Assembly: GCA_020720625.1 (NCBI GenBank) | Contig: DYOH01000040.1 | Location: forward strand, 1-32,035 | Direction of reading: 5' to 3' | DNA from: Acetofilamentum sp. | GTDB taxonomy: Bacteria; Bacteroidota; Bacteroidia; Bacteroidales; DYOH01 | Length of the DNA stretch: 32,035 nt | Shown: positions 2,435-25,710 of the stretch, one piece after another | Layout: every line of letters begins with the position of its first letter | How positions within the stretch are numbered: the first letter of the stretch is position 1 | Made by a program: the position numbers and the translations under genes | The notes under the pieces: generated by a model | The model's input: the letters and a program-made list of their open reading frames with translations, nothing else | The model's database searches: none | What the model was told of the DNA's origin: nothing

Positions 2435-2453
2435 TTATATACTTTTTTATTGA

Positions 2454-4472: not shown

Positions 4473-4537
4473 TTTAAAAAAAAATAATGAGAAAAATATT
4501 TCTCCTTTCGCAAATTAAGATAAAAAAGCTGCATTTT

Positions 4538-4639
4538 CTTTCCATGTTGAAAGGTTTACTGATTTTAATTTTGAATCCCACTTCAATTTTAGGGGAAGTA
4601 CATGGAAAGTTTTTGAGGCTTTCCATGTAAAAAATCAGT
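4538..4639 (-). other. Structured intergenic RNA element with competing CTTTCCATGT pairings
   Basis: An 11-bp perfect hairpin (TACATGGAAAG at 4599-4609 with CTTTCCATGTA at 4619-4629, 9-base loop) sits inside a 9-bp outer stem (ACTGATTTT 4558-4566 with AAAATCAGT 4631-4639). A second CTTTCCATGT copy at 4538-4547 could replace 4619-4628 as the partner of 4600-4609. There is no U-run after the hairpin on either strand, so it is not a normal terminator. It lies between the LamG lipoprotein and the second GH144-type gene of the same operon, suggesting RNA processing, stability control or attenuation. Confidence 0.6.
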
Positions 4640-4672
4640 GGAACTAATAAAATACAGCCAATATTATGCTAC

Positions 4673-5920: not shown

Positions 5921-5964
5921 ACTTCTTAAGATTAAAATTAATTATAAATGTTTATTCGCTTTAT

Positions 5965-7458: not shown

Positions 7459-7471
7459 TTTTTTTTTTGAA

Positions 7472-10456
7472 TTATAAACTCAGTTTTAAACCAACGGAAT
7501 AAATAGACGACACAGGATAAGTGCCGTAATCGAGACCACTGCTGATTGGGCCACCCATTATTTCGGGTGTATATCCGGTATATTTTGTTAGGATAAAGAT
7601 ATTTGTACCAGATATTGATAAGCTGATATTCTGCATTTTAAGTCTTTGGCTGAAACTTCTGGGCAAATTGTATCCCAAAGATAAATATCTTAAACGGAAG
7701 AATGAACCATCCTGGACATAGAACGAAGATGGCAGGTAGTTGTAGCCACCTTGCGTGGCACGAGGTTCGGTTTCTGATGTACCATCTCCGGTCCATCGAT
7801 CATAAACATGCGATTCAAAGTTGTATAAATCAGGCCGAATGGTTTCTTTTACATTATAAATCTTGTTTCCGCTTTGGCCCTGAAAATCAATATTCAGATC
7901 AAATCCTTGGTAGGAAGCGCTAAAATTTAAGCCATACATGAAATTTGGAATTGGTGAGCCGAGGTATGTTCTGTCGTCGTCGGTAAGAATTCCATCGCCA
8001 TTAACATCTACAAAGCGTAAATCTCCGGGAACAACACCAGCCCGATGTGGGTATGCATCTATATCGGTCTGATTTTGGAAAACGCCGTCTACCTGATATC
8101 CATAAAATGCTCCTACAGGTAATCCAATTTTTGAGCGGGTAAACCCGCCACCGCCTACAAGATAATCTTCGGTGTTTCCGGTTCCGGTAATTTCAAGGGC
8201 TTCGTTGTGAAGGGTATTACCCAATATGCCGATGCTATAGTTTAGTTTTTTTAGACTTTTGTTGTATTTTAGGCTAAATTCAATACCAGAGTTTAATACT
8301 TTGGCCGCATTTTGTGTAATCGAAGAGTTACTTCCGTTGCCTACAAAACCTGGTAAGGTTAAATCTACCAGAATATCATTGGTAACTTTGCGGAAATAAT
8401 CTATTTCGGCCGTTACTTTATTGTCCCATAATCCAAGTTCGAAACCGGCATTTGTTTGGTAGGTGGTTTCCCAAACCAAATCAGGATTTCCGGTGGTGGA
8501 GTAGGTTTGTCCGGCAATGATGGCATCTTCTGTACCAAAAACGGCATTTATGCCAGAGCCAACAAGCGAATATTGCCTGCTGTATAGAATTTTTTCGTTG
8601 CCAACGCCACCCCAACTCGCGCGAAATTTTAAATTGGAAATGGCAGAAACATTTTCCATAAAGCTTTCGTTATGTAGATTCCAGCCAACAGCAAGGGCTG
8701 GAAAGCCGGCATACCGGTTTTTTTCGGTAAATTTGGAACTGCCGTCCAATCGGTAGGTGGCTGTAAAAAGATATTTTTCGTTGTAAGTGTAATTAGCTCT
8801 GAATAAATAGCTTAAAATCGAATAATAAGCATCTGCATTTACTCCGTTGCCTACAGCATTTTCGTTTAAGTTATTAGGGTCGAGATACCAAAAATCTTCG
8901 CTGTTGCGCACCAGATTTTCTGCTTGCAGATTGAGATATTCTGAGCTTACTTCTTGCATGGTATAACCGGCCAATACATTTATTCTGCTTTTTTCAAACT
9001 CTTTAAAATAGGTAAGGGTATTTTCCCAAATCCATGAAAGTTGATTAGAATTACCTTTTCCTAATCTGCTCATGGTATTCTGCTGCTGAGGAGAAACAAA
9101 GAAAACAGGTGAAAATGATTCGTATTGATTGTAGTTCACATCCATACCGTAGCTCGATTTAAACATGAGCGATTTTGTAATGTTTAGCTCGGCAAAAAAG
9201 TTACCTGTAGCTCTTATTCCTTTAGAAAAACTATTGGTATATTCAATATCGGCCAATGGATTTCCGGTTCCGGGCAATGCAGTGTAGCTTCCGTCTACTT
9301 GATAAGGTTCAAGTACCGGCCAGGCTCTATAGGCTACAAAAACCACATTTCCGTTTGTATTCTGTTGATTGGTAGGTGATACTGTAATATTGTTGCCAAG
9401 CTTAATCGCCTTACTAAGATTGTAGGAGTTATTGAGTTTTAGCGAGAAACGTTCGAAATTTGATTTACTGATAATTCCATATTGTTTGTAATAGCCAAAT
9501 CCAAGATAAAATTGAGATTTTTCGGACGCACCGCTAATAGAAATTTGTGCATTATAAATTGGAGCTGCAAAACCATCTGTAAAAATAAGGTCTTGCCAGT
9601 CGGTGTTGGGCAGTGCATCCAGGTTATTATATGTTCCGGGTTTTATTTCGTTTACAATTTCGCCGTATTCTTTTCCGTTCAAGAGCGATATACGTTTTTG
9701 CAATACCTGAATACTATAATCGGAGCTGAATACCACGTTTGATTTGCCTTTTTCGGAATTTGCGGTTCGTGTGGTAACAATAATAACCCCGTTTGCCCCG
9801 CGGGAACCATAGATGGTTGTGGCAGATGCATCTTTAAGCACTTCAATAGATTCTATGTCGGCAGCGTTTAAATAATCGATATTGTCGAGAATTACACCGT
9901 CTACCACGTAAATTGGGTTTGTGTTATTAAAGGTTCCAACGCCTCTCACGCGCACTACAACACCAGACCCCGGTTGTCCCGAAGAGCTCACAACTTGCAC
10001 TCCGGCCACTTTTCCTTGTATGGCTTGCAATGGCGACATAGATGATATTTTGGGTAATTTATCGGCTTTAATTGAAGTAACAGAGCCGGTAAGGTCGCTT
10101 CTACGTTGCACACCATATCCAATTACCACAATATCTTCGAGTTCTTGCGAAACTACGTCTAATGTTACAGCAATGTTTGTTTTTCCGTTTAGTTCAACTT
10201 CTTTGGTCGCATATCCGATGTAGGAAAAAACAAGTACATTATCGGAAGCCTCCATATTGATCTGAAAATTTCCTTCCAAGTCGGAAGAAACGCCTACCGT
10301 TTTATTTTTAATTACCACATTTACAAATGGTAAAGCTTCACCAGTCTGTGTATCAGTAATTTTACCGGTTACTGTTTTCTCTTGCGCTAATGCTTTAGAT
10401 AAGAAGCCAGTAAGCAAGAATGCAATGAGAATAATGTTTGTTGCAAGATTTTTCAT
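7472..10456 (-). CDS. susC: SusC/RagA-family TonB-linked outer-membrane transporter
   Basis: This 994-residue transporter moves oligosaccharides across the outer membrane using TonB energy. A signal peptide ends near LSKALAQ, followed by a CarboxypepD-reg-like domain (KTVTGKITDTQTGEALPF, about 28-105). A TonB-box-like VVIGYGVQRR and a plug domain carry the SusC signature GSRGANGVIIVTT, and a long beta-barrel runs to the terminal strand SVGLKLSL. No N-terminal STN/anti-sigma interaction domain is present, so control by a dedicated sigma/anti-sigma pair is not suggested; that fits the separate regulator at 12213-15044. The size is typical. Gaps of 20 bases upstream and 13 downstream place it inside the operon. 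Certain as a family member; substrate inferred from context. Confidence 0.97.
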   Translation of the reverse strand: MKNLATNIILIAFLLTGFLSKALAQEKTVTGKITDTQTGEALPFVNVVIKNKTVGVSSDLEGNFQINMEASDNVLVFSYIGYATKEVELNGKTNIAVTLDVVSQELEDIVVIGYGVQRRSDLTGSVTSIKADKLPKISSMSPLQAIQGKVAGVQVVSSSGQPGSGVVVRVRGVGTFNNTNPIYVVDGVILDNIDYLNAADIESIEVLKDASATTIYGSRGANGVIIVTTRTANSEKGKSNVVFSSDYSIQVLQKRISLLNGKEYGEIVNEIKPGTYNNLDALPNTDWQDLIFTDGFAAPIYNAQISISGASEKSQFYLGFGYYKQYGIISKSNFERFSLKLNNSYNLSKAIKLGNNITVSPTNQQNTNGNVVFVAYRAWPVLEPYQVDGSYTALPGTGNPLADIEYTNSFSKGIRATGNFFAELNITKSLMFKSSYGMDVNYNQYESFSPVFFVSPQQQNTMSRLGKGNSNQLSWIWENTLTYFKEFEKSRINVLAGYTMQEVSSEYLNLQAENLVRNSEDFWYLDPNNLNENAVGNGVNADAYYSILSYLFRANYTYNEKYLFTATYRLDGSSKFTEKNRYAGFPALAVGWNLHNESFMENVSAISNLKFRASWGGVGNEKILYSRQYSLVGSGINAVFGTEDAIIAGQTYSTTGNPDLVWETTYQTNAGFELGLWDNKVTAEIDYFRKVTNDILVDLTLPGFVGNGSNSSITQNAAKVLNSGIEFSLKYNKSLKKLNYSIGILGNTLHNEALEITGTGNTEDYLVGGGGFTRSKIGLPVGAFYGYQVDGVFQNQTDIDAYPHRAGVVPGDLRFVDVNGDGILTDDDRTYLGSPIPNFMYGLNFSASYQGFDLNIDFQGQSGNKIYNVKETIRPDLYNFESHVYDRWTGDGTSETEPRATQGGYNYLPSSFYVQDGSFFRLRYLSLGYNLPRSFSQRLKMQNISLSISGTNIFILTKYTGYTPEIMGGPISSGLDYGTYPVSSIYSVGLKLSL

Positions 10457-10476
10457 AGAAAATCGTTTGTTTTGGG

Positions 10477-11943
10477 TTAAATTTCTTTTTTTATATTATC
10501 GAGCCAACCGCCGCTAAATCCGGCTTTGTGTAATCCATTAATAATGTATTTATTTTTTTTCATGACATTCCAGATGATTTCGTTTTCGTGGTTTGCCAAT
10601 TGAATTAATATTGGACCTTGGTCAATACCTAAATAATCGACATCAAACCAGCCGGTATTCCCAGTCTGAATATTTTTAAAAGATAGATTAAATGCATCTT
10701 TGAAACCATATTGTGCATATAAATCGTTCCCGAAAAGCACATACATGCTGTATAATGCTTTCATGGTTTCGTCGGGAGCAAAAGGTATTGAGCCTCCTGT
10801 AGCCGTTGGTGCAATAGTTCCATCATCGATAATTCTTTGTGCACTAGCACCTCTTGCTCGGTAAGAAAAATATTGGAGTTTTTTGTCGGGCGTTAAAATT
10901 TCGATATTATTAATGTTGATGTAATCCGCAGGCCCATCGCAAGCAGTTAATCCCCATATAGAGTCGGAATAATGCGGGAAACCCATTGGGTTGCGGATAC
11001 AATATGCTCTGTTTGAAAGAGTAGCTCTTTTTGAATTTTCGAAGTAGTCTATACCTTTTTTACTCATATATGCATCACTAATGCCTCTAAAATCAATAAA
11101 CATGTGCGAATATTGATGTCCGAACAGGGGTTCAAAGTTTACATGATCAAATCCTTGAAAATTCTCCCATTCGTAATTTTTAGTCCAACTATTCCATGCC
11201 GAATCAGGAATAGCATAAGTTGGCGACCCCAAAGCCATAATAAGCAGTATCATAGCTTCGTTGTAGCCTGTCCATTTGGATTCAATAAAACCGGTTTCGG
11301 GATGCCATCCCATCGACATCCATTCTTGGTTGTTCATAGCCCAATCCCATTGCACTCTAAGGTATAGGGAATCTGCTGTTTGTCGAATGGCTTTTTCTGT
11401 GGTGTTATCAGCATCGAAATACGACATACTGGCAAGTATTCCGGCCATTAATAAACCGGTATCAATGGTCGAGAGTTCAACATTTTTGTAACGTTTTCCT
11501 TGTCCGTAAGTTAAAAAATGGTAGTAAAAACCTTTGTAGCCAGTCATGTTATCTGGATCGGGACCTTGCGGTGATCGCAAAAGCCATAACAATGTACTAA
11601 GCACCCTTGTGGCTGCTTGTTCTCTGCTTACGAAATTGTTTTCTACACCTATTATATATGAGGTAAGTCCAAAACCCGTGGCAGCAATGCTTGCAAAGGT
11701 TTGGGCTGGGTATCTGTCGGGCGTTTGAAAAGTAGCAGTATCTGCTAGCTCCCAAAAATAGTTGAATGTCCTTTGTTTTAAGTCTGTAAAAAACGCATCA
11801 TGCGATAAAACGCTTGCTTGTGTTTTTTCTTTGTTTATCTTGCTGCAGGCACTAATAGTAAGTACCAGTATCAGCGGCAACACAAACAATGCTTTACGTA
11901 ATTTTATATTTTTCATCAGAATTAAATTTTCTTGTTTTTTCAT
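10477..11943 (-). CDS. GH144-type glucoamylase-family lipoprotein without accessory domains
   Basis: The ORF has 488 codons from the ATG at 11943. The in-frame ATG at 11916 gives a more usual 24-residue signal peptide ending LTISAC and is my preferred start. After the lipid Cys comes SKINKEKTQ, with no acidic export signal, suggesting a periplasmic-facing protein. The rest is one alpha/alpha-barrel of the glucoamylase/GH144 family: QRTFNYFWE, GFYYHF, ELSTIDTGLL, GYNEAM, NRAYC, WGLTACDGP, APDETMKA and YLGIDQGPI. It is a distant paralogue of the enzyme at 2454-4472, which has a different central segment (GGDLVETAFM). As first gene of the operon it lies just downstream of the promoter and operator-like repeats. 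It may release disaccharides such as sophorose from imported oligosaccharides; exact specificity is unknown. Confidence 0.88.
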   Translation of the reverse strand: MKKQENLILMKNIKLRKALFVLPLILVLTISACSKINKEKTQASVLSHDAFFTDLKQRTFNYFWELADTATFQTPDRYPAQTFASIAATGFGLTSYIIGVENNFVSREQAATRVLSTLLWLLRSPQGPDPDNMTGYKGFYYHFLTYGQGKRYKNVELSTIDTGLLMAGILASMSYFDADNTTEKAIRQTADSLYLRVQWDWAMNNQEWMSMGWHPETGFIESKWTGYNEAMILLIMALGSPTYAIPDSAWNSWTKNYEWENFQGFDHVNFEPLFGHQYSHMFIDFRGISDAYMSKKGIDYFENSKRATLSNRAYCIRNPMGFPHYSDSIWGLTACDGPADYININNIEILTPDKKLQYFSYRARGASAQRIIDDGTIAPTATGGSIPFAPDETMKALYSMYVLFGNDLYAQYGFKDAFNLSFKNIQTGNTGWFDVDYLGIDQGPILIQLANHENEIIWNVMKKNKYIINGLHKAGFSGGWLDNIKKEI

Positions 11944-12002
11944 TTTATTCTTTCTCTAAAAGGCAAATATGTTGCTTGAAAAATTGTAATTGTTAAACCT
12001 AT

Positions 12003-12041
12003 GTTATTTCAAATGTAAGTCGGGGTGCAAACGTTTCCAAA
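12003..12041 (-). promoter_or_regulatory. PUL promoter, Bacteroidota -33/-7 type
   Basis: On the minus strand TTTG (12041-12038) is followed after exactly 20 bases by TACATTTG (12017-12010), which matches the Bacteroidota consensus TTTG / TAnnTTTG with normal spacing. Transcription would start near 12003, leaving a leader of about 60-90 bases before the first GH144-type gene. It is the only full match in this intergenic region. Confidence 0.75.
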
Positions 12042-12047
12042 AAAAGT

Positions 12048-12110
12048 CTATACACAACAATACATCATGGTAAAAATAGCTATACAATGTACTACATCAT
12101 TACTACATCA
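12048..12110 (-). promoter_or_regulatory. Duplicated CTATACA-N6-TACATCA motif, putative operator of the PUL regulator
   Basis: Plus-strand coordinates 12048-12067 and 12080-12099 each read CTATACA-N6-TACATCA, with identical 7-base blocks and differing spacers. The copies are 32 bases apart, about three helical turns. A third TACATCA half-site at 12104-12110 lies 11 bases (one turn) after the second, inside the direct repeat TACTACATCA. The first unit ends 7 bases upstream of the -33 element at 12038-12041, the expected place for an activator. The HTH regulator encoded immediately upstream is the obvious candidate ligand (inference). Confidence 0.68.
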
Positions 12111-12212
12111 AAATAAAAATTGCAAGTATAATTAATTGAATAATAATAGATAATAGGAAGAGAAAAATATATTTTTTTCCCGAAATCGATTGTGCTAAAT
12201 GAGTATTATTTT

Positions 12213-15044
12213 TTAAAACTGCATTAAAAAATCATTAAGATTTTCGTCGGAGTTTAATTTTAATCGTTTTCGTAATCTATATCTCCTGATTTCTACACCC
12301 CGCACGGTTATATTCAGTAGTGGGGCTATCTCTTTGGTAGTGAGATTTAAACGTAATAAAACACAAAGTTTAAGGTCAGATGAGGTAAGTTCTGGATATA
12401 GGTCTTTTAAGCGATGTACAAATTGGTTGTTAATTCTGTTGAAATGAATCTCGAAAGTACTCCATACATCTTCTTTATTCTCCATGGAATCAATTAGCTT
12501 AAGTAGTCTGTCGGAGTAAATTTTTGGTAATCGGTTGCCGAGTTCTTTTTTTTGCTTATTTACTTCTTCTTTAAATTCGGTTATCAATTTGTTCATTCTC
12601 GAAAGGAGTAAGGTGTAATTTGCGAGTTCGGCGTTCTGGCTATTTACTTCGTCGAGTAGCATTCTATTGTTTTGTTTTATTCTGGTTTGCTCTTCGAGCA
12701 TATATTTTTTTTGCTGTTCGTCTATTTGTTTTTGATGTAACAAGAAAGCTTGTTTTTTAATGCGATAATAGAAATAATTGCGCAAGCTTCTGTAAGTTAA
12801 ATAAATGAGCGGTATGTATAATAAAAATGCCCACCAGGATAGAAAAAATGGCGGTTTAATTCGAAACTCATAAAAAGTACTCTCAGAAATATTTCCTTGT
12901 ATATCCATTAATTGCAGTTCGAAGATGTATTTTCCGCTGGGAAGTCTTTCGAAGCTTACCTCCGAGTTTTCGGACCAGCTGCTCCAGTTGTTGTCGTAAG
13001 ATTTTAGTTTATATCTAAATTGTGGTGCAACAATTGGTCTGTTTGGCGAAAATTCGAACAAAACATTGTTGTATTTGTATGGGAATATGGCATCTTTAAT
13101 ACTCATGTCGACGAGCAGTTTTCGGTGCAGATTATCAGAAATGCTAATATTCCGAAGATATACAGCCGGTTTTTGTTTGATAATTGTAACAGGATTTTTA
13201 AATATGGCAAAGCCGTTGTCTAAGCCGATTAAAAATACAGCGCTGTCTATCGTGGAAATATTTGGATAATTGGCAGCCAGGAAAACACCCTGACGACCTA
13301 AATCATATTCAAAGATGTTGCTTAAATGTTTGTTTTCGTATTTAAATAGTGCCATTTTATTATTGGAAATAAACCAGTATCCTGAATTTCCGGCTTTAAA
13401 CATTCTGTTTGCCGCACTGAAAATTCCGAGTTTCTTATTTAAATCCAAATAAGGAATAATGGTATCTTTGATATCGTCGTAGGTATAAATTTCGGAACCA
13501 TTCAGAAAAATAACCCTGCCTTCTAGTTCGCCAACGAAAAGATTTCTCGAATTTTTAAGGCCATGTCGGTGGTCGAAATAGCGAAGCGATTTAACCGAAT
13601 CAAGGTTTTGGTTTAATTCTATTTTGTATAGTCCTTTATGCAGATGTGCGGCCCATAAGTTGTTTTTAAAATCGATAGAAAAAGATGGAATAGGTTCGCT
13701 AAAACCTTTGATTGTGTTTGAAAATTCCCAGTCCTTATTTTTTTTGTAAATCACAAATTCGTTGTATGTGCTTTGAATAAGTGTTGTTGGGTTCAATTGT
13801 TGTAATTGAAATCCGCCATGTACGTTGGATATTTTTTCGAGAGTATTTTCAGATAATTTGAATGTTCCGTCGGTATGTCCGCAAAATAATTGCTCGTCGA
13901 TTAGTTCTAAATCCCACACCTGTCCTTGTGTACCTTCAATAAGTTGTGGATTTTCGAAAGCTCCGGCAGAACCGCTTTCATATACATATACACCCTGATT
14001 TGTACCCACCCAAAGCTTATTCTGAAAAGAAACAGCGTCGTAAACTGCCCTTTTGTTAAGCATTGGCGAGAGGTAGAATTCTAATGGATCGTTGGTTCTA
14101 ATGTAGGCAAGCCCGTCGTCGAGAGTAGCCCAAAAGTTCTGAAACCTGTCTTTATTTAGGGAAAGTACCGTATTATTATTTAATAGATTAGATGTATTCA
14201 GATGTTGAATTATTTCGCCTTTTTTGTTGAAAATGTATATTCCGTTAACAATTGTTCCGGTTACAAAAAGGTTTTTGATATTTAATCCGGCATTAATTTG
14301 GGCTTTTTGCAAAACTTGATTAACTGACGTATTCCATTTTTCTAGTTTTTGATTGTTTATAAGCAGAAAAAGGCCCGCTTTGGCTGCCCCTATTAGTAAA
14401 GTATCTTTGGCAAATGGAAGTACAATCTTAATTTCGTCGTTACCAAGGGGTTTTGTGGCATCCAGCGGATAGATTTTGTCGTTAATTATTTCGTGTAATC
14501 CATAGTCAATCAAATGGATAAATAGTCTGTTATCGGCTTTGAGCAAAAGTACGTAGGAGCTGTGTGAGCGTATGGTTTTTACTGTTTTTCCGTCGAAAAC
14601 ATAAATAGCTCCAAAGGATTGGAAATAGATTTTGTTTTTATGCTCAATAATTCGCCAAATTTCGTTGTTGTGAATTAGGTCTTGGGGAATGGAGTCCGAA
14701 AGTCTAAAAATTTTTTTCTGCTCGCCAAACCAATCCACTAAATAGCCAAATTCTTCGAAAGAACCAAAGTAGAGCTTGTTTTCATGGGCAAGTACACTTC
14801 TAACTACTTTCTTTTCAGGCAAAATAATGGTTGTCCATCTTATTCCGTCAAAACTAAGAATACCATCGTTATTGCCAAAATAGATTCTTCCATCGATATC
14901 GTCGGCCGATGACCAATTTTGTCGTGCTGCTTTATATATATCTTGTTTATAGTTAATTACAAAAACTTGCGCCGCTCTTTGTGTTTGTGCAGTAGTTGTG
15001 ATATGATATAAAATGAATAATATCAGAATAAAATATTTTCGCAT
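12213..15044 (-). CDS. Membrane-spanning PUL regulator: beta-propeller sensor, Y_Y_Y domain, LuxR-like HTH, no kinase
   Basis: This 943-residue protein appears to sense sugar in the periplasm and bind DNA directly in the cytoplasm. Residues 1-19 are a signal peptide (ITTTAQ). About 25-660 are two-component-regulator-type propeller repeats (for example KLWVGTNQGVYVYESG, NNLWAAHLHKGLYKIEL). About 670-720 are a Y_Y_Y domain (YKLKSYDNNWSSWSE, LPSGKYIFELQLMD). One transmembrane helix lies near 733-755 (WWAFLLYIPLIYLTY). A coiled coil of about 765-860 follows, and residues 882-943 form a LuxR/GerE-like HTH (TSSDLKLCVLLRLNLTTKEIAPLLN, then RGVEIRRYRLRKRL). No H-box, ATPase or receiver motifs are present, so it is not a classical hybrid two-component system. 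It lies directly upstream of the PUL on the same strand; no clear terminator separates them. Confidence 0.9.
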   Translation of the reverse strand: MRKYFILILFILYHITTTAQTQRAAQVFVINYKQDIYKAARQNWSSADDIDGRIYFGNNDGILSFDGIRWTTIILPEKKVVRSVLAHENKLYFGSFEEFGYLVDWFGEQKKIFRLSDSIPQDLIHNNEIWRIIEHKNKIYFQSFGAIYVFDGKTVKTIRSHSSYVLLLKADNRLFIHLIDYGLHEIINDKIYPLDATKPLGNDEIKIVLPFAKDTLLIGAAKAGLFLLINNQKLEKWNTSVNQVLQKAQINAGLNIKNLFVTGTIVNGIYIFNKKGEIIQHLNTSNLLNNNTVLSLNKDRFQNFWATLDDGLAYIRTNDPLEFYLSPMLNKRAVYDAVSFQNKLWVGTNQGVYVYESGSAGAFENPQLIEGTQGQVWDLELIDEQLFCGHTDGTFKLSENTLEKISNVHGGFQLQQLNPTTLIQSTYNEFVIYKKNKDWEFSNTIKGFSEPIPSFSIDFKNNLWAAHLHKGLYKIELNQNLDSVKSLRYFDHRHGLKNSRNLFVGELEGRVIFLNGSEIYTYDDIKDTIIPYLDLNKKLGIFSAANRMFKAGNSGYWFISNNKMALFKYENKHLSNIFEYDLGRQGVFLAANYPNISTIDSAVFLIGLDNGFAIFKNPVTIIKQKPAVYLRNISISDNLHRKLLVDMSIKDAIFPYKYNNVLFEFSPNRPIVAPQFRYKLKSYDNNWSSWSENSEVSFERLPSGKYIFELQLMDIQGNISESTFYEFRIKPPFFLSWWAFLLYIPLIYLTYRSLRNYFYYRIKKQAFLLHQKQIDEQQKKYMLEEQTRIKQNNRMLLDEVNSQNAELANYTLLLSRMNKLITEFKEEVNKQKKELGNRLPKIYSDRLLKLIDSMENKEDVWSTFEIHFNRINNQFVHRLKDLYPELTSSDLKLCVLLRLNLTTKEIAPLLNITVRGVEIRRYRLRKRLKLNSDENLNDFLMQF

Positions 15045-16583: not shown

Positions 16584-16967
16584 CTATATTTCGTCAATTT
16601 TCTGAAGCACAAAATCAGATTTTACAAAGTCTTTAAATTCTTCTCCAATGTCCAAAATATCGGTGTCGGCGAAATGATAGTGCCAGATTATTTTTACAGA
16701 ATTACCTTTATTGGCAATATCATCGAGTACCCTTAGAATTTCGTGAATCATTTTTGATGATGCTGTATTAATGTAATCTAGCTCGAATGTTAAATTGGTT
16801 TGGGGAGCCGGATTTTTTTTATAAAGTGTAATCCATTCTAATGCTGGGTGATATGTTTTTACTGTATTTTCGGGCATTGATGTACCTTTTATCCGAAAGT
16901 TTCCTGATATAGGGTTTAGGCTAATTTCGGGCTCGTATTTGGTGCCCTTTTGGTAAAATTTTTCCAT
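16584..16967 (-). CDS. SiaC-family regulatory phosphoprotein (DUF1987)
   Basis: The reading frame extends to an ATG at 17030, but I prefer the ATG at 16967 (MEKFYQKGT), giving 127 residues, the normal length of the family. Family features are the YEPEISLNP start, NFRIKGTSMPEN, HPALEWI and YINTASSKMI. With this start, the Thr of the NTASSK motif is residue 68, the position of the phosphorylated Thr of Pseudomonas SiaC (from memory), which supports the choice. In Pseudomonas SiaC is controlled by a kinase/phosphatase pair and activates a diguanylate cyclase; none of those partners is in this window. Here it sits downstream of the two RelA/SpoT genes and 24 bases before the PLP enzyme, so it may act on nucleotide signalling in some way (inference). 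Confidence 0.85.
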   Translation of the reverse strand: MEKFYQKGTKYEPEISLNPISGNFRIKGTSMPENTVKTYHPALEWITLYKKNPAPQTNLTFELDYINTASSKMIHEILRVLDDIANKGNSVKIIWHYHFADTDILDIGEEFKDFVKSDFVLQKIDEI

Positions 16968-17059
16968 TGTGTTTTTGTTGCTTAGTATCAAAATATATTC
17001 CAAAAATTTGTTCTTATTAATGACATGCAAAAAGGTAAAATAGTTGCAAGTATGCTTAA

Positions 17060-19204
17060 CTATCTTCTTTCTACTTTTTTCATTCCTTTGATAAGTGTTA
17101 AACGGTATAATAAATCGTTAATTACAAAATTTTTGGGGATATAGAGTTCCACAGAGCCTTTAAAATTGCGTTGGTCTGTTTCGAAATGAATGCTTCGCAT
17201 GGTAATATTAATTTCATTAATAATGATGGAGGTAACCCTGTTTACAATGCCCGAATGGTCGATGCCATGAAAATATATTACTACGAGTTTTGCTTCTTCT
17301 TTGCAACTTTTCCATTTAATTTTGATTCTCCGGTTAGGATATATTTCTAATACCGATTCGGCAATGGAGCAACTATGTTTGTGGGCTACAATGGTATTAT
17401 TTGATTTTAATCCAATAATATCGTTTCCTGGCAAAGGTAAGCAACATTGTCCTATTTCGATATTTATATCTTGCTGCTCTGTTTTCTGAACTGGTATTAT
17501 TTTCCAAAAATTTATTTTTTTCTCTTTAGAGCGTTCACTAAGCACAAGAAGTATTTGCTCAGCAGAAATTTCGCCGTTTCCGATTTTAAAATATAACTGT
17601 TCTTTGGTTTGAGCGCTAAAATGTTTGGCTAATTTTCGGAAAATATAATTATCGAAAAAAATATTCTCTTGCAATGTAAGTTCTTCTAAAATCCGAAGAC
17701 CTTGTCGTACAATATTTTTTCTTTCAGTGCGAAAGGCTTGCTTTAAATTTTCGCGGGCTTTGTCGGTTTTAACCAGGTTTACCCATTCTTTTTTGAGGTG
17801 TTGTTTCTCGGCGGTTAAAATTTGCACTTTGTCGCCGCTTAATAGCACATGTTCGGGAGGCACAGATTTATGGTTTACTTTGGCACCAATGCATCTTAAT
17901 CCAATATCGGTGTGTATATGGAAAGCAAAATCGAGCACTGTTGAATTGCTTTTAAGCTTTAAAATTTCGTTTTTGGGTGTAAAAACGTAGATATCCTCAT
18001 AAAAAATATTGCTTTTAAAATTGTCGAGTAATTCGTATGTACTTTCGGAGTTTGTATCTTTCAAATCTTTTAATTGCTGCACAAGCCTGTCGAAAGCAGT
18101 TTCTTCGGTAGAATCTCCCTTGTATTTCCAGTGGGCCGCAATTCCGAGGCTGGCAAGGTCGTCCATTCTTTTGGATCTGATTTGTACTTCAACCCATTTT
18201 TGGTCGTCGGATCTTAGGGTAATATGCAAGGCTTCGTATCCGTTTTCTTTTGGTTTGCTCACCCAGTTGCGCAATCTGTCTATCTTGGGCGTATACATTT
18301 GTGTAATAATGCTGAATATATTCCAGCACTGTGCAGCTTCTGTAATATTTTCCTGTGCCTGAAAAACGATTCTGATAGCATATATATCGTAAATCTCGTC
18401 GAAGGTTACGTGCTTTTTCTGCATTTTGTTCCAGATCGAATATACAGATTTAACCCTGCCGTCTATTTCGTACTTATAGCCTAAATTATCGAGCGCTTGC
18501 ATTATGGGCACAGTAAATCGGTTAATCGATAGCATGCGCTTTTGCTCCGAACCATCAAGTCGGTCCGATATATAGCGGTAAATATCGGGCTGAAAAATCT
18601 TAAAGCTTAAATCTTCGAGTTCGGTTTTTACTTCGTAAAGTCCGATGCGATGGGCTACAGGTGCATATATCTCAAGTGTTTCCGATGCTACTTCTTTGGC
18701 TGCCAAAGAGCTGTTTCGGTTGGCCAATATCCTAATTTCGTGCAGTTTTATTGCGAGTATCACCAGAATTACTCTTGCGTCGAAGGAGATGGTAAATAAT
18801 AGATTTCGTACCTGTTCGGCCTTATTTTTCTGATTTTCGCTTACTTTATTGGGTACTCTGCTCAGGGCTTTTACAATACTGGCTATTCTTTCGCCATATA
18901 CCTGACTAATTTCTTCGAAATCGTAGATAAGATTGTGGCGGCATAGGTAAAACATGGACGAAATTACCGATTTTGATCCCAAATTGAGTTCATCTACCAG
19001 AATTTCTGTAATAAATTGTACTTTCTCTAGCTGAATAATGTCGTATTCGTCGCGGGTAAGTTGGAGTATTTCCTGGGTTTGATTGTAGGCTTCTAAAATT
19101 TTATCCTCATTTTTTTTTATAGAAATATTTCCGTTTTGATTTATATATTCAATATAATTAAGACGGTATGCTGCTATCGATTGTGGTGAATTATGAACAT
19201 TCAT
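17060..19204 (-). CDS. relA: RelA-type (p)ppGpp synthetase with inactivated HD domain
   Basis: This 714-residue long RelA/SpoT homologue should make (p)ppGpp from ATP and GDP/GTP. The N-terminal HD domain has lost all metal ligands: no HP motif near 61, the LLHD motif is FYLC (Tyr86, Leu87), and the ADRLH motif is AIKLH (Ile152). The synthetase domain is intact: DGRVKSVYSIWNKM, catalytic Asp273 in YDIYAIRIVF, GYEALH (Tyr323, His327), VEVQIRSKRMDDLASLG and AAHWKYKG. A TGS domain (about 402-465, STVLDFAFHIHTDIGLRCIG), a CC/zinc-finger segment (GQCCLPLPGNDIIG) and a C-terminal ACT domain complete the ribosome-sensing half. It lies 45 bases after the hydrolase-type paralogue, with siaC and the PLP gene downstream. 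I see synthetase-only; lack of hydrolysis is inferred from missing residues. Confidence 0.93.
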   Translation of the reverse strand: MNVHNSPQSIAAYRLNYIEYINQNGNISIKKNEDKILEAYNQTQEILQLTRDEYDIIQLEKVQFITEILVDELNLGSKSVISSMFYLCRHNLIYDFEEISQVYGERIASIVKALSRVPNKVSENQKNKAEQVRNLLFTISFDARVILVILAIKLHEIRILANRNSSLAAKEVASETLEIYAPVAHRIGLYEVKTELEDLSFKIFQPDIYRYISDRLDGSEQKRMLSINRFTVPIMQALDNLGYKYEIDGRVKSVYSIWNKMQKKHVTFDEIYDIYAIRIVFQAQENITEAAQCWNIFSIITQMYTPKIDRLRNWVSKPKENGYEALHITLRSDDQKWVEVQIRSKRMDDLASLGIAAHWKYKGDSTEETAFDRLVQQLKDLKDTNSESTYELLDNFKSNIFYEDIYVFTPKNEILKLKSNSTVLDFAFHIHTDIGLRCIGAKVNHKSVPPEHVLLSGDKVQILTAEKQHLKKEWVNLVKTDKARENLKQAFRTERKNIVRQGLRILEELTLQENIFFDNYIFRKLAKHFSAQTKEQLYFKIGNGEISAEQILLVLSERSKEKKINFWKIIPVQKTEQQDINIEIGQCCLPLPGNDIIGLKSNNTIVAHKHSCSIAESVLEIYPNRRIKIKWKSCKEEAKLVVIYFHGIDHSGIVNRVTSIIINEINITMRSIHFETDQRNFKGSVELYIPKNFVINDLLYRLTLIKGMKKVERR

Positions 19205-19249
19205 TACTGCAAACTCTTTTTATGGTTGCGTTGGCAAATATAGTAATCA

Positions 19250-21511
19250 TTATAGCATTTCGAAATTATATTCGCGTAAACATTTATCAACTCCCTTGAT
19301 ATGTCTTACTTTGTTGATCAGATAATCGAGCACCTCCTTATTTTTTACAAACAGTATTATATCCCCCAAAAATCGGGTTTGATTTTGTATGGTAACGTTG
19401 ATAGAATGCATATTGAGGTTATTTTCGTTGTTGGATATTTCTTGAGCAATATCCCGAATTAGTCCTGGACGATCTACGCCTTTTACATTAATTTTTGCCG
19501 GAAAAATATTTAAACTTTGGTTCATCCATTCTACCGGCACTGCCTTTTTGCCGTGGACTGCTAAAAATTCTTTCGCTTGTGGACATTGTGTCTGGTGAAT
19601 CATGTAAACTCCATGCTTGTTTTGAAATATAACCGCATTATCGCCCGGAACCGGATTGCAGCATTGAGCCAGAAAATAATTGTTGTAAATTTGTCTTTCG
19701 TCGAGGAGAAATGATTTTTTGGGGTCGATTTCTACTTTAGTTATTGGTATATTCTCTTTTTCGTTGGTGAATTTAAAAATATTGCGAAAAAAACTTTGTG
19801 TACCTTTGGAGTGCGGATTTATTAGCTTTCGATAAATATCTTCCTGGCTGATTATTTTTTCGCCTAGTCTGAAAAATAATTCTTCGCTGCTCATTTTGTA
19901 AATCTGTTGCAGGTTTTCTGCCGCTTTTGTTTTGTTTCTTATTCCGGCATCGCTTATGATAGAATTAAATGTTTCTCTTCCTAAAATTGATACTTCCTGT
20001 CGCTTCTTTTTAAAAAAATCTTTAATGGCATCTGCTGCTTTTCGGGTTTTTACATAATCAATCCAAAATTCGTGTATTACCGGAATTTCGGCCTGATCAA
20101 TTTTAACTCTTTGTCCACCATGTAGTTGATATGATACTGGCACATAGAATTTGTCTACAGTGGCACCCATGCATTTTAGACCCATTTCTGTATGAATATG
20201 AAAGGCAAAATCTAAAACAGTGCTTCCTTTTGATAGTCGTATCGGCTTTCCGTCGGGAGCAAAAACTACTATTTCGTTCGAAAAACTGGTGGTTATCTCC
20301 TTTAGAAACTCCCATGCATCAACAGAATTGCTCGATAAGTCTTCGTGAAGTCTTTTTATCCAATTGTTTTTGTAGATTTTTTCTAATCCCGATGGACTAT
20401 TTTTTAAGGATAATGGTCCATGATCGTTTATCATTCTCATGCGTTCACTTAGAATTTGTATTTCTACAAATTCAAGGGGTGGTTTGGCCATAATGTCGAA
20501 AACAATGGCTTCAAATCCGTTTTTCTTTTCTAGTTTGATAAAATCGCGCAAGGAATCTTTCTGTGTTTGAAAAATATTGGTAATCTCGGCGTAGATCATG
20601 TATACCATTCTTCTTTCCATGGATTTATCGCTGGGCGAATCAAAAATAATGCGTATAGAGCGATAATTATGAATTTCATCGAGTGGTTTTTGGTTTTTGT
20701 CCATTTTTTTCCAAACGGAATACACCGATTTGCGAAAATACTCTACTCGTATTGGTATTTTTTCTGATTTTAGTTTTTCTTCAATCTTGTGTTTAATATT
20801 CTCAAATGCATCATCTCTAGCCGTTTCTACATCTTCAATCATACGCGAAATAACGTGGTAATCCTGTGGATTTGTTATTTTAAAACTGGCATCTTCGAGT
20901 TCTTGCTTTATTTTATATAAGCCGAGGCGCGCTGCAAACGGACTATAGAAAAAGGTGTTTTCGCCGGCTTTTCGTAGTTTGGAATTTGCACCTAAGCCAT
21001 CAAGGGTGCGCATATTGTGAAGCCTGTCGGCAATTTTTATGTATATTACCCTAATATCATTACTTGAATTCATGATTACTTTTTGCAGGGAGAATAGTTG
21101 CTCGGCAGATAAAATCTCTTGCTGCTCTGAGCCTATTTTATTACTCTGACTGGTAATTTTCGTTAATCCATCTACAACGGCTGCAATGTGAGGGCCAAAA
21201 AGATTTTCAATGTCTTTTACGGTGTATAATCCGCCAGAATCTTCTACCACATCGTGCAAAAGCGCACAAATAACCGAATCGGTGCCAAACCCTATTTCGT
21301 TTCTCACTATTTTGGCTACTGCTATTGGATGAACAATGTATGGATCTACTTTGTTTTTGCGCATTTGACCATAATGACCATCGTAAGCTACCATTAGCGC
21401 TTTTTTTATTCTCTCAAGCTCATTCATGGGTAATTCGCCCAAAAATTCTGTTCTTATCTGGTTATAATATACATCTATCTGCTCAATATCGCTTTTTGAA
21501 AACTCACGCAT
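19250..21511 (-). CDS. spoT: SpoT-type (p)ppGpp hydrolase with degenerate synthetase domain
   Basis: This 753-residue RelA/SpoT homologue should remove pyrophosphate from (p)ppGpp. The HD domain is complete: His61 in YIVHP, His86-Asp87 in LLHDVVED, Asp162 in ADRLHNMRTL. The synthetase domain keeps its frame (RKSVYSVWKKM, RSIRIIF, VEIQI) but has lost key residues: the catalytic Asp is Asn282 (EIHNYRS), the GYxSLH Tyr/His are Phe333 and Val337 (GFEAIV), and the AExGxAAHWxYK segment is replaced by INDHGPLSLKN. TGS (STVLDFAFHIHTEMGLKCMG), a CC segment (AQCCNPVPGDNAV) and an ACT domain remain. It precedes the synthetase-only paralogue on the same strand by 45 bases. The two look like a divided bifunctional Rel. 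No good promoter box was found in the 90 bases upstream, so readthrough from the MORN pair is possible. Confidence 0.93.
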   Translation of the reverse strand: MREFSKSDIEQIDVYYNQIRTEFLGELPMNELERIKKALMVAYDGHYGQMRKNKVDPYIVHPIAVAKIVRNEIGFGTDSVICALLHDVVEDSGGLYTVKDIENLFGPHIAAVVDGLTKITSQSNKIGSEQQEILSAEQLFSLQKVIMNSSNDIRVIYIKIADRLHNMRTLDGLGANSKLRKAGENTFFYSPFAARLGLYKIKQELEDASFKITNPQDYHVISRMIEDVETARDDAFENIKHKIEEKLKSEKIPIRVEYFRKSVYSVWKKMDKNQKPLDEIHNYRSIRIIFDSPSDKSMERRMVYMIYAEITNIFQTQKDSLRDFIKLEKKNGFEAIVFDIMAKPPLEFVEIQILSERMRMINDHGPLSLKNSPSGLEKIYKNNWIKRLHEDLSSNSVDAWEFLKEITTSFSNEIVVFAPDGKPIRLSKGSTVLDFAFHIHTEMGLKCMGATVDKFYVPVSYQLHGGQRVKIDQAEIPVIHEFWIDYVKTRKAADAIKDFFKKKRQEVSILGRETFNSIISDAGIRNKTKAAENLQQIYKMSSEELFFRLGEKIISQEDIYRKLINPHSKGTQSFFRNIFKFTNEKENIPITKVEIDPKKSFLLDERQIYNNYFLAQCCNPVPGDNAVIFQNKHGVYMIHQTQCPQAKEFLAVHGKKAVPVEWMNQSLNIFPAKINVKGVDRPGLIRDIAQEISNNENNLNMHSINVTIQNQTRFLGDIILFVKNKEVLDYLINKVRHIKGVDKCLREYNFEML

Positions 21512-21601: not shown

Positions 21602-23104
21602 TTACTGAAAAACAAGAAATCTATCTTTTAATGTATATACTAGTCCTTTGGTGTTTTTGTATTTTATGAGGTAATAATACACTGCATAATCAGTTGTTTG
21701 TTTACTGTTAGATGGTTGCCATTTAAACTGAATATCATCCGAATTAAAGAGAGAAATGCCTTTGATATCAAATATTTCGATTGTGAAAGAGCTGCAAAAA
21801 ACGCATTTTATCTGAAAATATTTGTCTGTTTCGATGGGCGAGAGTAGGTAAATAGCATTGGGTATCTCTATTTTTGTTTCTTTATAAAGATTTAAAATAT
21901 TGGATTGATAGCTTGTTTGAAAACCACCATTGGCCTGGTTATAAGTTTCTAGTTTTACAAAATATTTTTTGGCTGCAGCGGCTTCGATATTATTGTCTTG
22001 CCAATAATCCGGAATGTAGTTTAAGGTTTCGATATCTTCGAAATTTGGACTGCTTAATCCGGCAGCGTAGAGTGTGGTTTTTTGTACATTTTCTGTAGCA
22101 GAGAATAGCTTGGATGTGGCCATTTCGAATGTATTTTCAAAAAGAAGTTGCCGGGTTTCTTTTATTACGAGCGGGCTTATATAGGCGTATTGGCCAATAA
22201 TTTGCTTACATGGATTTATTGCCAATATTTGGTATTTGGGCTCTTGGGCTGCGTTAAATGGGGCTTTGTAGAGTTTTTCGGCGCTCCCAAGGCTGTCTGT
22301 ATGCACAAGCCTATTGTTTTCGAAAGTTTGAAAAAGCCAAAAAGCGGGCAGATTTTCTAATACTGCATTAAAATGAATTTCTGTATTGCTGCCGTTTACT
22401 ATTACACTGTCGATAGCAATATTGGTTTGTTCGCTTCGGGCTTCGAGCAAGCATAATTGATTGGAAAAGCTATTTTTGCCGTTTATTTCGGCCATTATTT
22501 TAAAGCAAAGCTTTATGCTGTCGGCGGATTCGGTTTGACTACCTTCGTAGTCGTTTATTTTGATGGTAGTTTGCCTATCTGATTCGGATGCACTGATATA
22601 ATAATCCTTTGATATTGTCATGATTTTCAGTTGCATTTTTTGGTATGCTGCACCTATAGCATTGCTCCATTCTATTAGTATTTCGGAATTACAGTTTTGC
22701 AGTGTAAGTTTTTTGATGAAAAATGGTGCTATTGTTTGGCTAAGCTCGCTGTATTCGTATTCTGTACCTGAGCGCTTAAATGATGCTATCTTATAGGCAT
22801 AATGATGCAAGCCAATGTTCGGATTTTGATTTATAAAACTTAGGTCGGTAAAAGTGCAAGTATTTTTCTTGTTAATTTCTGCCAGGGGCATAAATGCACT
22901 ATCGGCTACAGATGATTGGTCGTATACAGTTCTGTACAGAATGTACCCGTCGATTAGCGAAGTATCGGGGCAAATCCATTCTATAAAAACTTTTTGCTCC
23001 GGATACTCTTCAACCGAAATATGTTTAAACACAGGCACCGGTAGGTGTAGTGCCTGTGTTTGAAAACCCGAAAATACAATAAATATCAGAATTATTATGC
23101 GCAC
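21602..23104 (-). CDS. Secreted protein with Fn3-like domains and a T9SS type-B-like C-terminus
   Basis: This 500-residue protein starts at GTG, fused to the previous stop as TAGTG. The signal peptide ends near FQTQA. An Fn3-like domain spans about 25-125 (KVFIEWICPDTSLIDGYILYR ... YAYKIASF); further beta-rich segments follow. The last 90 residues (IPNAIYLLSPIE ... FTIEIFDIKGISLF ... VYYYLIKYKNTKG) resemble the CHU_C/gliding-associated domain used as a type-IX secretion signal, though the usual GDGxND loop is absent. Overlap with the MORN/caspase-like gene implies coupled translation and a shared task at the envelope. No enzymatic motif is recognised. The function is unknown; secretion is well supported, the T9SS assignment only moderately. 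Confidence 0.75.
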   Translation of the reverse strand: MRIIILIFIVFSGFQTQALHLPVPVFKHISVEEYPEQKVFIEWICPDTSLIDGYILYRTVYDQSSVADSAFMPLAEINKKNTCTFTDLSFINQNPNIGLHHYAYKIASFKRSGTEYEYSELSQTIAPFFIKKLTLQNCNSEILIEWSNAIGAAYQKMQLKIMTISKDYYISASESDRQTTIKINDYEGSQTESADSIKLCFKIMAEINGKNSFSNQLCLLEARSEQTNIAIDSVIVNGSNTEIHFNAVLENLPAFWLFQTFENNRLVHTDSLGSAEKLYKAPFNAAQEPKYQILAINPCKQIIGQYAYISPLVIKETRQLLFENTFEMATSKLFSATENVQKTTLYAAGLSSPNFEDIETLNYIPDYWQDNNIEAAAAKKYFVKLETYNQANGGFQTSYQSNILNLYKETKIEIPNAIYLLSPIETDKYFQIKCVFCSSFTIEIFDIKGISLFNSDDIQFKWQPSNSKQTTDYAVYYYLIKYKNTKGLVYTLKDRFLVFQ

Positions 23105-25710
23105 TAAAATTTTGAATTGTTCTCCAAATAAAACGGTATTTGTCTTGAATTTGTTATTTGTGAAACATATATTTTTGCAGATTCAAACATTTTCTGGTAA
23201 TCGCTTAGCTTCTGGTTACTTAAAAATGAAGGCAAAAATGAATTATTTGGCACTGATTTTCCGGGTTCGGTGCCTGGCATGGTAGAAAAGTATACAACGG
23301 TATTTAAGGGAGGGTTTGCCGGATATAGTCCAATTTCTCCATTCAGGCTAAATAGGGGCTCTTTGTATTGCGGTACCTGATAATCGAGAATCGCAAAGTT
23401 TGCTTGCGAACCACCGTAACGAATTTCATCATATAATCGGGTAAGCTCTATTCCGAAAAGAATAACATCATCTTGGGTTGCGATAGAATCATTGCTCAAT
23501 ATAAAATAATTTTTGGAACTGAATTGCTTCATCAAACCTCCAAAATAGAAGAAACTTCCTTCCTGGTTTTGCTGAATACTCTCGCCAAATTCGCGCAAGG
23601 CTTTTTCGAGTTGTGCCCGCTGTGGATTAATAAGCGTTATAATTTCGTAGTTTTGAGCCAATAGAAAGTTTTCCAGAAGCTTGGCATTTTCGGCAAAATA
23701 GGCATATTTTGGGTTGTTGTATGAATTAGCGATAAGCAAAGCCTGTTTTTTACTCTTTGCATTTTGCTTAAAATTTATCATGCGAATATCGGATGTCTCT
23801 TCACCGAAATCATTTATAGCCAGTATTTTAATTTCGTTTGCTCCAGCTTCGAGCTTAATTTCTTTTTCGATTGTAAAATCATATTCGGGCAATGGTTGGG
23901 TCGATAAAACGAATTGGGCAAGATTAGAAACTAATTTTTCGTTTACAAAAATTTGCACATTGCTTAATGCCGTTGCAGAGGTAAGGCCGAATTTTAGTTT
24001 AACATTTCCGCTGTTGCTTGTGCTTTGTGCCGTAAGCGGTACTTCCCACATAATCTTGGGCAAATCCGGGTTTTGTGGCGCTTTTACTATAAATTTACCT
24101 TCTCGCCAAAGTGCATGCAATACGCTATCGTTTCTATAAACATACATGCCTCTGCCGTCGATGTAATTTTTTTTCCATGTACCCAGGTATCGTTCACCAT
24201 TGTTGTAAATTTGTTTGCCGTAGCCTTCTTTCAGGCCTTCTTTAAATTCTCCCACGTATATATTTCCGTTGGTTTCGTAGAGCATGCCTTTTCCACTATA
24301 TTTACTATTAATCCACTCACCAATATATCTGTCACCATTTTTTGCAATATATGTACCATAGCCATACCAACAATCGCCACTAACACAGCCAAAACCTAGT
24401 TTTTGCAGTCTGGTAAGTTTGTCGCCAATCCAAAATCCCCTTTCAATTTTTCCATCTGCATAGTACATAACGCCTTCGCCATATATAGAGTCGTTTTCGA
24501 ATTCGCCAACAAACTTGTTTTCGTTCTCGAAAATAAACTCTCCATAGCCATGCCTTAAGTCTTTTTTAAAGTATCCGGTATATTTTTCGCCATTGGAGAA
24601 GGTATGCACCCCAAAACCGTTTTTCTTGTCCATTTGCCAAAACCCACGGTATTCGCTTCCCGAAGAAAACCGGTTGATTCCATAAAAACATCGGCGGTCG
24701 TTTCTCCAGAATCCTTGATAATAGGCTCCTGAAGCCCAGTCATAAAGCCCAAATCCGGTAACACAGTCGCCGGAATTGCATCGGTCGGCCAGGGTATCCT
24801 TTTTGATGTATTTTCCGTCCATCCAATAACCTACAAGTCTGGAACCATCAATTTGGTTAAGGATGCCCAATCCGTTGGGCAGATTGTTTTTTGTTTCGCC
24901 TTCGTAAATGCAGCCCGGAAACTCAGAAAATGAGCCAAAGCTAATCTTCCCTTTTCCATTTGCACAGTTGCCTTCTAAACAGATATTTTCGTCGGTAAGT
25001 ATTTTCTCTTCTTTCCAGCGATTATTTATCCAAAAACCTTTCTGACGGCTTTGCGAAGATGCATCGTAAAATGCGCCGTATCCATGACGCTGACCTTTCT
25101 CGAAGGTGCCTTCGTAATAGTCGCCGTTTGGATAGCGCATGGTACCATAGCCTTGTATGGTGTCGTGCCCCCATTCGCCCATATATACTTCACCGTTGTT
25201 AAACTCAAAGTTTCCGCGACCATGTTTTAAAGAGCCCCAAAATTGTCCGTTATATTTTGAGCCATCTGCGTAAATATAAGACCCCATGCCTTCGATGCAA
25301 TTGCCCGACAAACAGCCTAGGCGCAAATAGCTAGGCCCTACAAGTATATCGTTCGCAAAAAGTACATACATTTTGGTTCCATCAGGATAATGCATAGTTC
25401 CCGACATTTCCCTTTTTCCATCATTCCAGTAGCCAAAATACTCACTTTGATCGGTATAAATCATGTGGCCGTTGCCATTGGGTAAGGCTTCTACAAGATA
25501 TCCCTCGTATCGATTTCCGTTTTTGTAATGCAGGCGGCCAAAAGCAATGGGCTTTTCGTTGCGAAACCTTATAATTAGTGTATCGCCCGATTTCAGTAAA
25601 AATTTACCGTCTCCGTTTTTGCAATCTCCGCTAATACATGTGCCTGCTAATTGGCTAAATGCACTTAGTCCTAATAGAATAAATAGTTGAGTAATAATTA
25701 GTTTCTTCAT
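23104..25710 (-). CDS. MORN-repeat protein with Ig-like linker and catalytically dead caspase-like domain
   Basis: This 868-residue exported protein has a signal peptide (about 1-20, ending AFSQ). Residues about 22-540 are MORN repeats (YxGxW/F...GxG pattern), divided into blocks by five Cys-x-x-Gly-Asp/Asn-Cys motifs at 25-30, 133-138, 244-249, 311-316 and 442-447. About 550-650 are an Ig/Fn3-like domain of the kind that precedes Bacteroidota caspase domains. About 653-868 align by eye with the C14 caspase fold (KKQALLIANSYNN, ALREFGESIQQNQEGSFFYFGG, FAILD). The catalytic His (usual GHG) is Leu726 in YFGGLM, and the catalytic Cys (usual LDACR) is Gln778 in LDYQVP. It is probably a scaffold or pseudoprotease in the periplasm. 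It is translationally coupled to the T9SS-like gene downstream. Confidence 0.85.
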   Translation of the reverse strand: MKKLIITQLFILLGLSAFSQLAGTCISGDCKNGDGKFLLKSGDTLIIRFRNEKPIAFGRLHYKNGNRYEGYLVEALPNGNGHMIYTDQSEYFGYWNDGKREMSGTMHYPDGTKMYVLFANDILVGPSYLRLGCLSGNCIEGMGSYIYADGSKYNGQFWGSLKHGRGNFEFNNGEVYMGEWGHDTIQGYGTMRYPNGDYYEGTFEKGQRHGYGAFYDASSQSRQKGFWINNRWKEEKILTDENICLEGNCANGKGKISFGSFSEFPGCIYEGETKNNLPNGLGILNQIDGSRLVGYWMDGKYIKKDTLADRCNSGDCVTGFGLYDWASGAYYQGFWRNDRRCFYGINRFSSGSEYRGFWQMDKKNGFGVHTFSNGEKYTGYFKKDLRHGYGEFIFENENKFVGEFENDSIYGEGVMYYADGKIERGFWIGDKLTRLQKLGFGCVSGDCWYGYGTYIAKNGDRYIGEWINSKYSGKGMLYETNGNIYVGEFKEGLKEGYGKQIYNNGERYLGTWKKNYIDGRGMYVYRNDSVLHALWREGKFIVKAPQNPDLPKIMWEVPLTAQSTSNSGNVKLKFGLTSATALSNVQIFVNEKLVSNLAQFVLSTQPLPEYDFTIEKEIKLEAGANEIKILAINDFGEETSDIRMINFKQNAKSKKQALLIANSYNNPKYAYFAENAKLLENFLLAQNYEIITLINPQRAQLEKALREFGESIQQNQEGSFFYFGGLMKQFSSKNYFILSNDSIATQDDVILFGIELTRLYDEIRYGGSQANFAILDYQVPQYKEPLFSLNGEIGLYPANPPLNTVVYFSTMPGTEPGKSVPNNSFLPSFLSNQKLSDYQKMFESAKIYVSQITNSRQIPFYLENNSKF

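Follow-up and report, generated by a model that had tools for sequence, protein, structure and literature searches.

Tandem long RelA/SpoT homologues with reciprocal active-site losses suggest a division of (p)ppGpp hydrolysis and synthesis between paralogues in Bacteroidales

Results

Gene pair and neighborhood

The window, by which we mean the whole 32,035-nucleotide stretch of contig DYOH01000040.1 of Acetofilamentum sp. that was analyzed here, contains two adjacent genes encoding long RelA/SpoT homologues (RSHs). Both open reading frames are on the minus strand, so that the gene at positions 19250-21511 is transcribed first and the gene at 17060-19204 second. The former encodes a protein of 753 amino acids (P0002) with a predicted (p)ppGpp hydrolase activity only, and the latter a protein of 714 amino acids (P0001) with a predicted (p)ppGpp synthetase activity only. 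Both reading frames and the gap of 45 bp between them (19205-19249) are as the first-pass annotation of this DNA had placed them.

In the 753-aa protein, an HD domain with intact active-site residues (Pfam HD_4, residues 42-198; 20918-21388, minus strand as for all domains given here) is followed by a pseudo-synthetase domain carrying N282, F333, V337, and L354 (RelA_SpoT, residues 261-365; 20417-20731), a TGS domain (residues 415-471; 20099-20269), and an ACT domain (ACT_4, residues 669-746; 19274-19507). The 714-aa protein comprises a pseudo-HD domain with Y86, L87, H90, N91, I152, and E156 (HD_4, residues 62-189; 18638-19021), an intact synthetase domain with R250, D273, Y323, H327, and E339 (RelA_SpoT, residues 249-364; 18113-18460), a TGS domain (residues 405-464; 17813-17992), and an ACT domain (ACT_4, residues 642-713; 17066-17281). 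HD_4, RelA_SpoT, and TGS scored over the Pfam cut-offs in both proteins, as did ACT_4 in the 753-aa protein; the earlier statement that both proteins keep TGS and ACT parts thus holds, with the ACT match of the 714-aa protein just below threshold at 26.1 bits, 0.9 short of the cut-off of 27. The HD_4 score was 98.9 bits in the 753-aa protein versus 72 in the 714-aa protein, and the RelA_SpoT score was 121 bits in the 714-aa protein versus 48.3 in the 753-aa protein. Each protein fits the architecture of a long RSH (HD, SYNTH, TGS, AH/RIS, and ACT in this order on a single chain), and each scores >400 bits against the NCBI spoT_relA model, with neither reaching its curated cut-off.

At the gene boundary there is a Bacteroidota-type promoter-like match, TTTC-N19-TATATTTG (19235-19265, minus strand), with one mismatch to TTTG-N19-TANNTTTG. 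It was picked out after the fact from 18 such matches in the window, compared with 10.6 expected. The TANNTTTG -7-like box recurs in or near the gap in two of the relatives with tandem genes introduced below (G001 and G019) and is absent in a third (G002). The match is a possible, if weak, candidate for a separate promoter of the synthetase gene.

A gene for a SiaC-family regulatory phosphoprotein (16584-17030, minus strand) lies 29 bp past the synthetase gene. In a gene-order comparison of relatives it stood beside the pair in no genus but the window's own, which rules out SiaC as a conserved component of the system. Farther away, the minus-strand gene at 23104-25710 encodes a protein of 868 amino acids that has MORN repeats and weakly matches a caspase-like domain (Peptidase_C14); this gene overlaps by one base the gene at 21602-23104, whose product carries a type IX secretion signal domain (CHU_C). 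A cluster resembling those for glycan utilization occupies 203-15044 on the minus strand; its products include GH3, a protein resembling TonB-dependent receptors, a sensor-like protein with a Y_Y_Y domain, and two glucoamylase-like proteins of PF10091.

Active-site residues

Key HD and synthetase positions were chosen according to what is established for the RSH family, and they are numbered in the Rel_Seq scheme, transferred by motif from E. coli SpoT. In an alignment with E. coli SpoT and RelA, the 753-aa protein has all eight HD residues of the set R44, H53, H77, D78, E81, D82, D144, and N148 (R51, H61, H86, D87, E90, D91, D162, and N166 in its own numbering) and 9 of 19 synthetase residues, whereas the 714-aa protein lacks all eight HD residues and retains 17 of the 19 synthetase residues. 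The synthetase losses of the 753-aa protein are D264 to N282, Y308 to F333, H312 to V337, R241 to F, and R327 to L, and the conserved HW is also gone; equivalents of E323 (Glu350), K243, K251, R269, K304, and N306 are retained. The two synthetase differences in the 714-aa protein, K297 to R and S310 to A, are shared with most ordinary Bacteroidales Rel proteins of our set. Neither protein therefore combines intact HD and SYNTH sites in a single chain as does a bifunctional Rel[HS]. By its residues the 753-aa protein is of the SpoT[Hs] type, with HD intact, synthetase lost, and pseudo-SYNTH kept, and the 714-aa protein is of the RelA[hS] type, with HD residues lost and synthetase residues intact.

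The residues named in the first-pass annotation (H61, H86, D87, and D162 together with N282, F333, and V337 in the 753-aa protein; D273, Y323, and H327 together with Y86, L87, and I152 in the 714-aa protein) are all present at these numbers. Their register was not shifted in the comparison with E. coli SpoT and RelA, in HMMER alignments with solved RSHs including B. subtilis Rel (6yxa), or in 35-sequence alignments. These three types of alignment, together with the recurrence in relatives, rule out misalignment or chance. In the congener genome G001 both genes are likewise intact and show almost identical losses, and this, with the pattern in 14 genomes described below, again argues against chance.

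Sequence constraint and predicted structures

Mean identity to ordinary bifunctional Rel proteins is 0.50 in the HD domain and 0.30 in the synthetase domain for the 753-aa protein, and 0.26 and 0.56, respectively, for the 714-aa protein. Opposite residue losses are thus matched by opposite drops in domain identity, which bears out the earlier proposal of a reciprocal subfunctionalization of adjacent long RSH paralogues. Mean pairwise identities within groups (HD/synthetase) are.64/.60 among bifunctional Rel proteins,.48/.34 among hydrolase-only proteins,.37/.52 among their Rel partners, and.24/.60 among BT_0700-like proteins; in both hydrolase-only proteins and Rel partners the drop is greatest in the degenerate domain.

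Between the window's genome and G001, dN was 0.32 (HD) and 0.28 (pseudo-synthetase) in the 753-aa gene and 0.43 (pseudo-HD) and 0.18 (synthetase) in the 714-aa gene, with dS saturated in both. Values of dN well under a saturated dS indicate that the degenerate domains are still constrained, and together with the intact reading frames they rule out that the genes are pseudogenes. AlphaFold models had a mean pLDDT of 83.7 (714-aa protein) and 82.5 (753-aa protein), and in these models both degenerate domains are predicted to retain their fold. The catalytic halves of both models matched Rel structures with TM-scores of ~0.9 on the target. The top PDB match was the hydrolase-only A. baumannii SpoT 7qpr for the 753-aa model and the ribosome-bound RelA 5iqr for the 714-aa model; as the E-value gaps were small, we take these predicted likenesses as supporting evidence only.

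Hydrolase-only proteins and their Rel partners in related genomes

The same residues were read in a first set of 41 related genomes and in a second set picked for extra or odd RSH copies. A clade of hydrolase-only long RSHs (clade I; SH-aLRT 98-99) is represented in 14 genomes, namely the window's own (G000), its congener G001, and G002, G018, G019, G037, G038, G046, G067, G071, G156, G171, G174, and G249, which span eight family codes (f1, f17, f18, f36, f37, f45, f66, and f70). At Rel_Seq position 264, all 14 carriers have Asn in place of the catalytic Asp, and N282 is invariant among the seven clade I members that were aligned. The co-resident Rel retains between 0 and 6 of the eight HD residues, and Asp82 of the HD Glu-Asp pair is altered in every one of the 14 (to N, H, E, V, T, K, or Y), compared with 8/8 HD residues in the Rel of 22 sampled genomes that have no hydrolase-only gene. 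As the genomes are related, this contrast is an association and does not represent 14 independent events. Further losses differ, with D78 and E81 missing in G002 and D144 in G019, so that much of the HD decay occurred lineage by lineage. Recurrence of the reciprocal loss in eight families points to a real division of labor, not an accident of sequence.

Tandem genes, with the hydrolase-only gene preceding the synthetase gene on the same strand, were found in four of the 14 carriers belonging to two families (G000, G001, G002, and G019, the last with a gap of about 309 bp). In the other ten, the two genes lie on separate contigs, a few of them short, and the flanks examined lacked the partner. 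The gene order that the first-pass annotation had proposed to survey is thus shared by some relatives and was not seen in the majority of carriers.

A first search for the hydrolase-only gene in contigs of named genomes found no relative, and in a second such search the best 80 matches were all long RSHs without the pattern, one sequence being incomplete. A class-wide search at a strict threshold found the window's own genome alone; because the profile used favors its own members, this result is no census.

Outside clade I, a second group of hydrolase-only long RSHs (group II; L155-L161 and L018, mostly 624-636 aa) occurs in G211, G232, G309, G136, G292, G336, G356, and G030 (family codes f22, f29, and f111). 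Here Asp264 is replaced by Gly or His in most members and Tyr308 and His312 are kept, so that the synthetase was lost through other changes. G030, G136, and G232 pair the group II gene with an intact Rel, and in G211 and G292 the partner has lost Glu81. Groups I and II were apart in one tree and together in another (support 94, unstarred). Two additional genomes, G005 (L012/L011) and G047 (L169/L170), have one hydrolase-only and one synthetase-only long RSH each, and RSH extraction found no bifunctional Rel in either.

Phylogeny

The 714-aa protein was placed among Rel proteins, apart from the synthetase-only clade. It grouped with the Rel of Bacteroides, Phocaeicola, Parabacteroides, and Alistipes, which were interspersed with sampled genomes of the same order (probably, on this basis, Bacteroidales), and not with the BT_0700-like clade, in a tree set that did not include BT_3998 and BT_0700 themselves. 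Judged by this position, the 714-aa protein is the orthologue of the BT_3998-type Rel (RshB). The 753-aa protein branches among the long RSHs of Bacteroidota and apart from E. coli SpoT, in a tree without Moraxellaceae SpoT; descent from a proteobacterial SpoT was not found, and its predicted resemblance to SpoT[Hs] is in working, not by descent.

Subtrees of both paralogues echo the same genome groups (G000 and G001, then G002; G071 and G174; G067 and G171), as expected for vertical inheritance after an old duplication. On these trees the clade I pair is an inherited system. Constraining hydrolase-only and partner proteins together improved lnL by 5.5 (p-AU 0.60), which is consistent with, but does not prove, one duplication for both. 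The Rel partners did not form one clean clade, deep branching is weakly settled, and a weak tree of C-terminal parts only did not recover clade I.

Other alarmone enzymes of the genome

The window's genome encodes a third long RSH, L001 (contig C62, 370-2682, minus strand; 771 aa). Its synthetase site is conserved, all eight HD residues are missing, and it carries a loop of 52 residues where ordinary Rel has ~22. L001 falls in the synthetase-only clade and is likely the counterpart of BT_0700/PGN_0465 as these are described in the literature (PMC6994654, PMC10746209). The tandem pair is thus not the whole alarmone system and is ruled out as the sole set of alarmone enzymes.

No further HD_4 protein over the cut-off was found in the window's genome, a draft of 143 contigs that is 98.5% complete, and the 753-aa protein is therefore probably its only ppGpp hydrolase. 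A 141-aa single-domain HD protein, L007 (contig C30, 1297-1722, minus strand), is sub-threshold for HD_4; its nearest PDB match is the (p)ppApp hydrolase 7smg (E 4e-42), and it might also be a candidate ppGpp hydrolase.

Discussion

A bifunctional Rel must toggle between synthesis and destruction of ppGpp within one molecule. The two proteins described here are best explained (probability about 0.86) as paralogues derived from a BT_3998-type bifunctional Rel between which the activities are divided, forming part of a predicted system of one hydrolase and two synthetases. The 753-aa protein would act as a (p)ppGpp hydrolase and the 714-aa protein as a (p)ppGpp synthetase, each retaining its degenerate domain as a structural or regulatory part, and the two losses would complement one another. 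Both keep TGS, a zinc-finger-like CC part, and ACT, and their C-terminal halves probably still sense starvation. Upon starvation, (p)ppGpp would be made by the 714-aa protein and L001, and it would be removed mainly by the dedicated 753-aa hydrolase. By analogy with A. baumannii SpoT, the degenerate domains may hold the conformational switch of long RSHs in place.

An account that predicts the same activities and differs in adaptive meaning is plain decay, in which the degenerate domains are relics of a neutral course of duplication, degeneration, and complementation. The HD domains of the Rel partners have eroded unequally and by different residues, which is what one expects once a separate hydrolase exists, and the intact Rel beside a group II hydrolase-only gene in three genomes is also in favor of decay. 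We nevertheless regard it as unlikely, though the most serious of the alternatives, given that both degenerate domains are predicted to be folded, that dN is far under a saturated dS, and that the arrangement was retained over eight family codes. Earlier authors argued that duplication-degeneration-complementation does not fit the RelA/SpoT pair (Atkinson et al., PMC3153485).

Division of activities between separate paralogues is also to be distinguished from a true split Rel, in which co-made subunits would form a regulated physical complex and each degenerate domain would serve the live domain of the partner in trans. Such a heteromer would suit the hydrolase-then-synthetase order in four genomes of two families and the folded, constrained state predicted for the degenerate domains. 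It is improbable, because adjacency was not seen in ten of the 14 carriers, the window has a promoter-like site between the two genes, and A. baumannii SpoT[Hs] was reported to be monomeric (PMC9974481). Given the promoter-like match in the gap, a fixed stoichiometry no longer follows from the tandem order, and with adjacency limited to 4/14 carriers, the stoichiometric co-expression of opposing enzymes suggested in the first-pass annotation is unsupported, as is its heteromer.

That the 753-aa protein is not a strict hydrolase, but a weak or conditional synthetase or the producer of another pyrophosphorylated nucleotide, appears very improbable: despite the survival of the catalytic Glu350 and several Lys and Arg residues, which leaves room for weak residual synthesis, and despite purifying selection on the pseudo-synthetase, the replacements at D264, R241, Y308, H312, and R327 jointly remove a metal ligand and substrate contacts, the Asn at the catalytic Asp is invariant in the aligned clade members, and synthesis by Moraxellaceae SpoT is abolished in vivo by the loss of its synthetase residues (PMC9974481).

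The closest known parallel to the division of activities proposed here is the SpoT[Hs]/RelA[hS] pair of Moraxellaceae such as A. baumannii, in which hydrolysis and synthesis are fully split and the degenerate domains are kept in both proteins (PMC3153485, PMC9974481); the pseudo-SYNTH of A. baumannii SpoT tunes hydrolysis (Nat Chem Biol 2022, PMC9974481). The window's pair differs in belonging to another phylum and another duplication, in having as synthetase partner the Rel orthologue itself, in the presence of a third long RSH, and in its tandem genes. For Bacteroidia, Rel[HS] and RshB[HS] were listed, with complete separation described only for Moraxellaceae (Atkinson et al. 2011, PMC3153485), and a synthetase-only Rel with a bifunctional RshB was predicted in Porphyromonas and Bacteroides (Kim and Davey, PMC6994654). 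The proteins in question, BT_0700/PGN_0465 (synthetase only) and BT_3998/PGN_1757 (bifunctional, RshB) (PMC6994654, PMC10746209), likely have their counterparts in L001 and the 714-aa protein, respectively, but in the window the BT_3998 counterpart lacks all eight HD residues, and a hydrolase-only third long RSH stands beside it. Like E. coli RelA, the 714-aa protein combines a conserved synthetase with 0/8 HD residues, whereas E. coli SpoT retains the synthetase site of which the 753-aa protein has only 9/19 residues. Small alarmone hydrolases (Mesh1, RelH, and the (p)ppApp hydrolase 7smg) likewise hydrolyze without a synthetase but are single HD domains, whereas the 753-aa protein retains the full long RSH architecture.

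In conclusion, we read the sequences as best explained by a complete subfunctionalization of the Moraxellaceae RelA[hS]/SpoT[Hs] kind, arrived at separately in Bacteroidales. Text searches of the open-access literature turned up no account of a long RSH limited to hydrolysis from Bacteroidota, and the reciprocal hydrolase/synthetase split in this order is apparently undescribed so far. It would be a second full separation into two long RSHs, in another phylum, where the papers found otherwise describe only that of Moraxellaceae. The sampled genomes include intermediates, from a hydrolase-only copy beside an intact Rel, through Rel proteins lacking one or two HD residues, to the window's species with none left. 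These provide a natural series for asking what role the degenerate domains play, and the same series bears on whether the separation of hydrolysis from synthesis follows duplication-degeneration-complementation.
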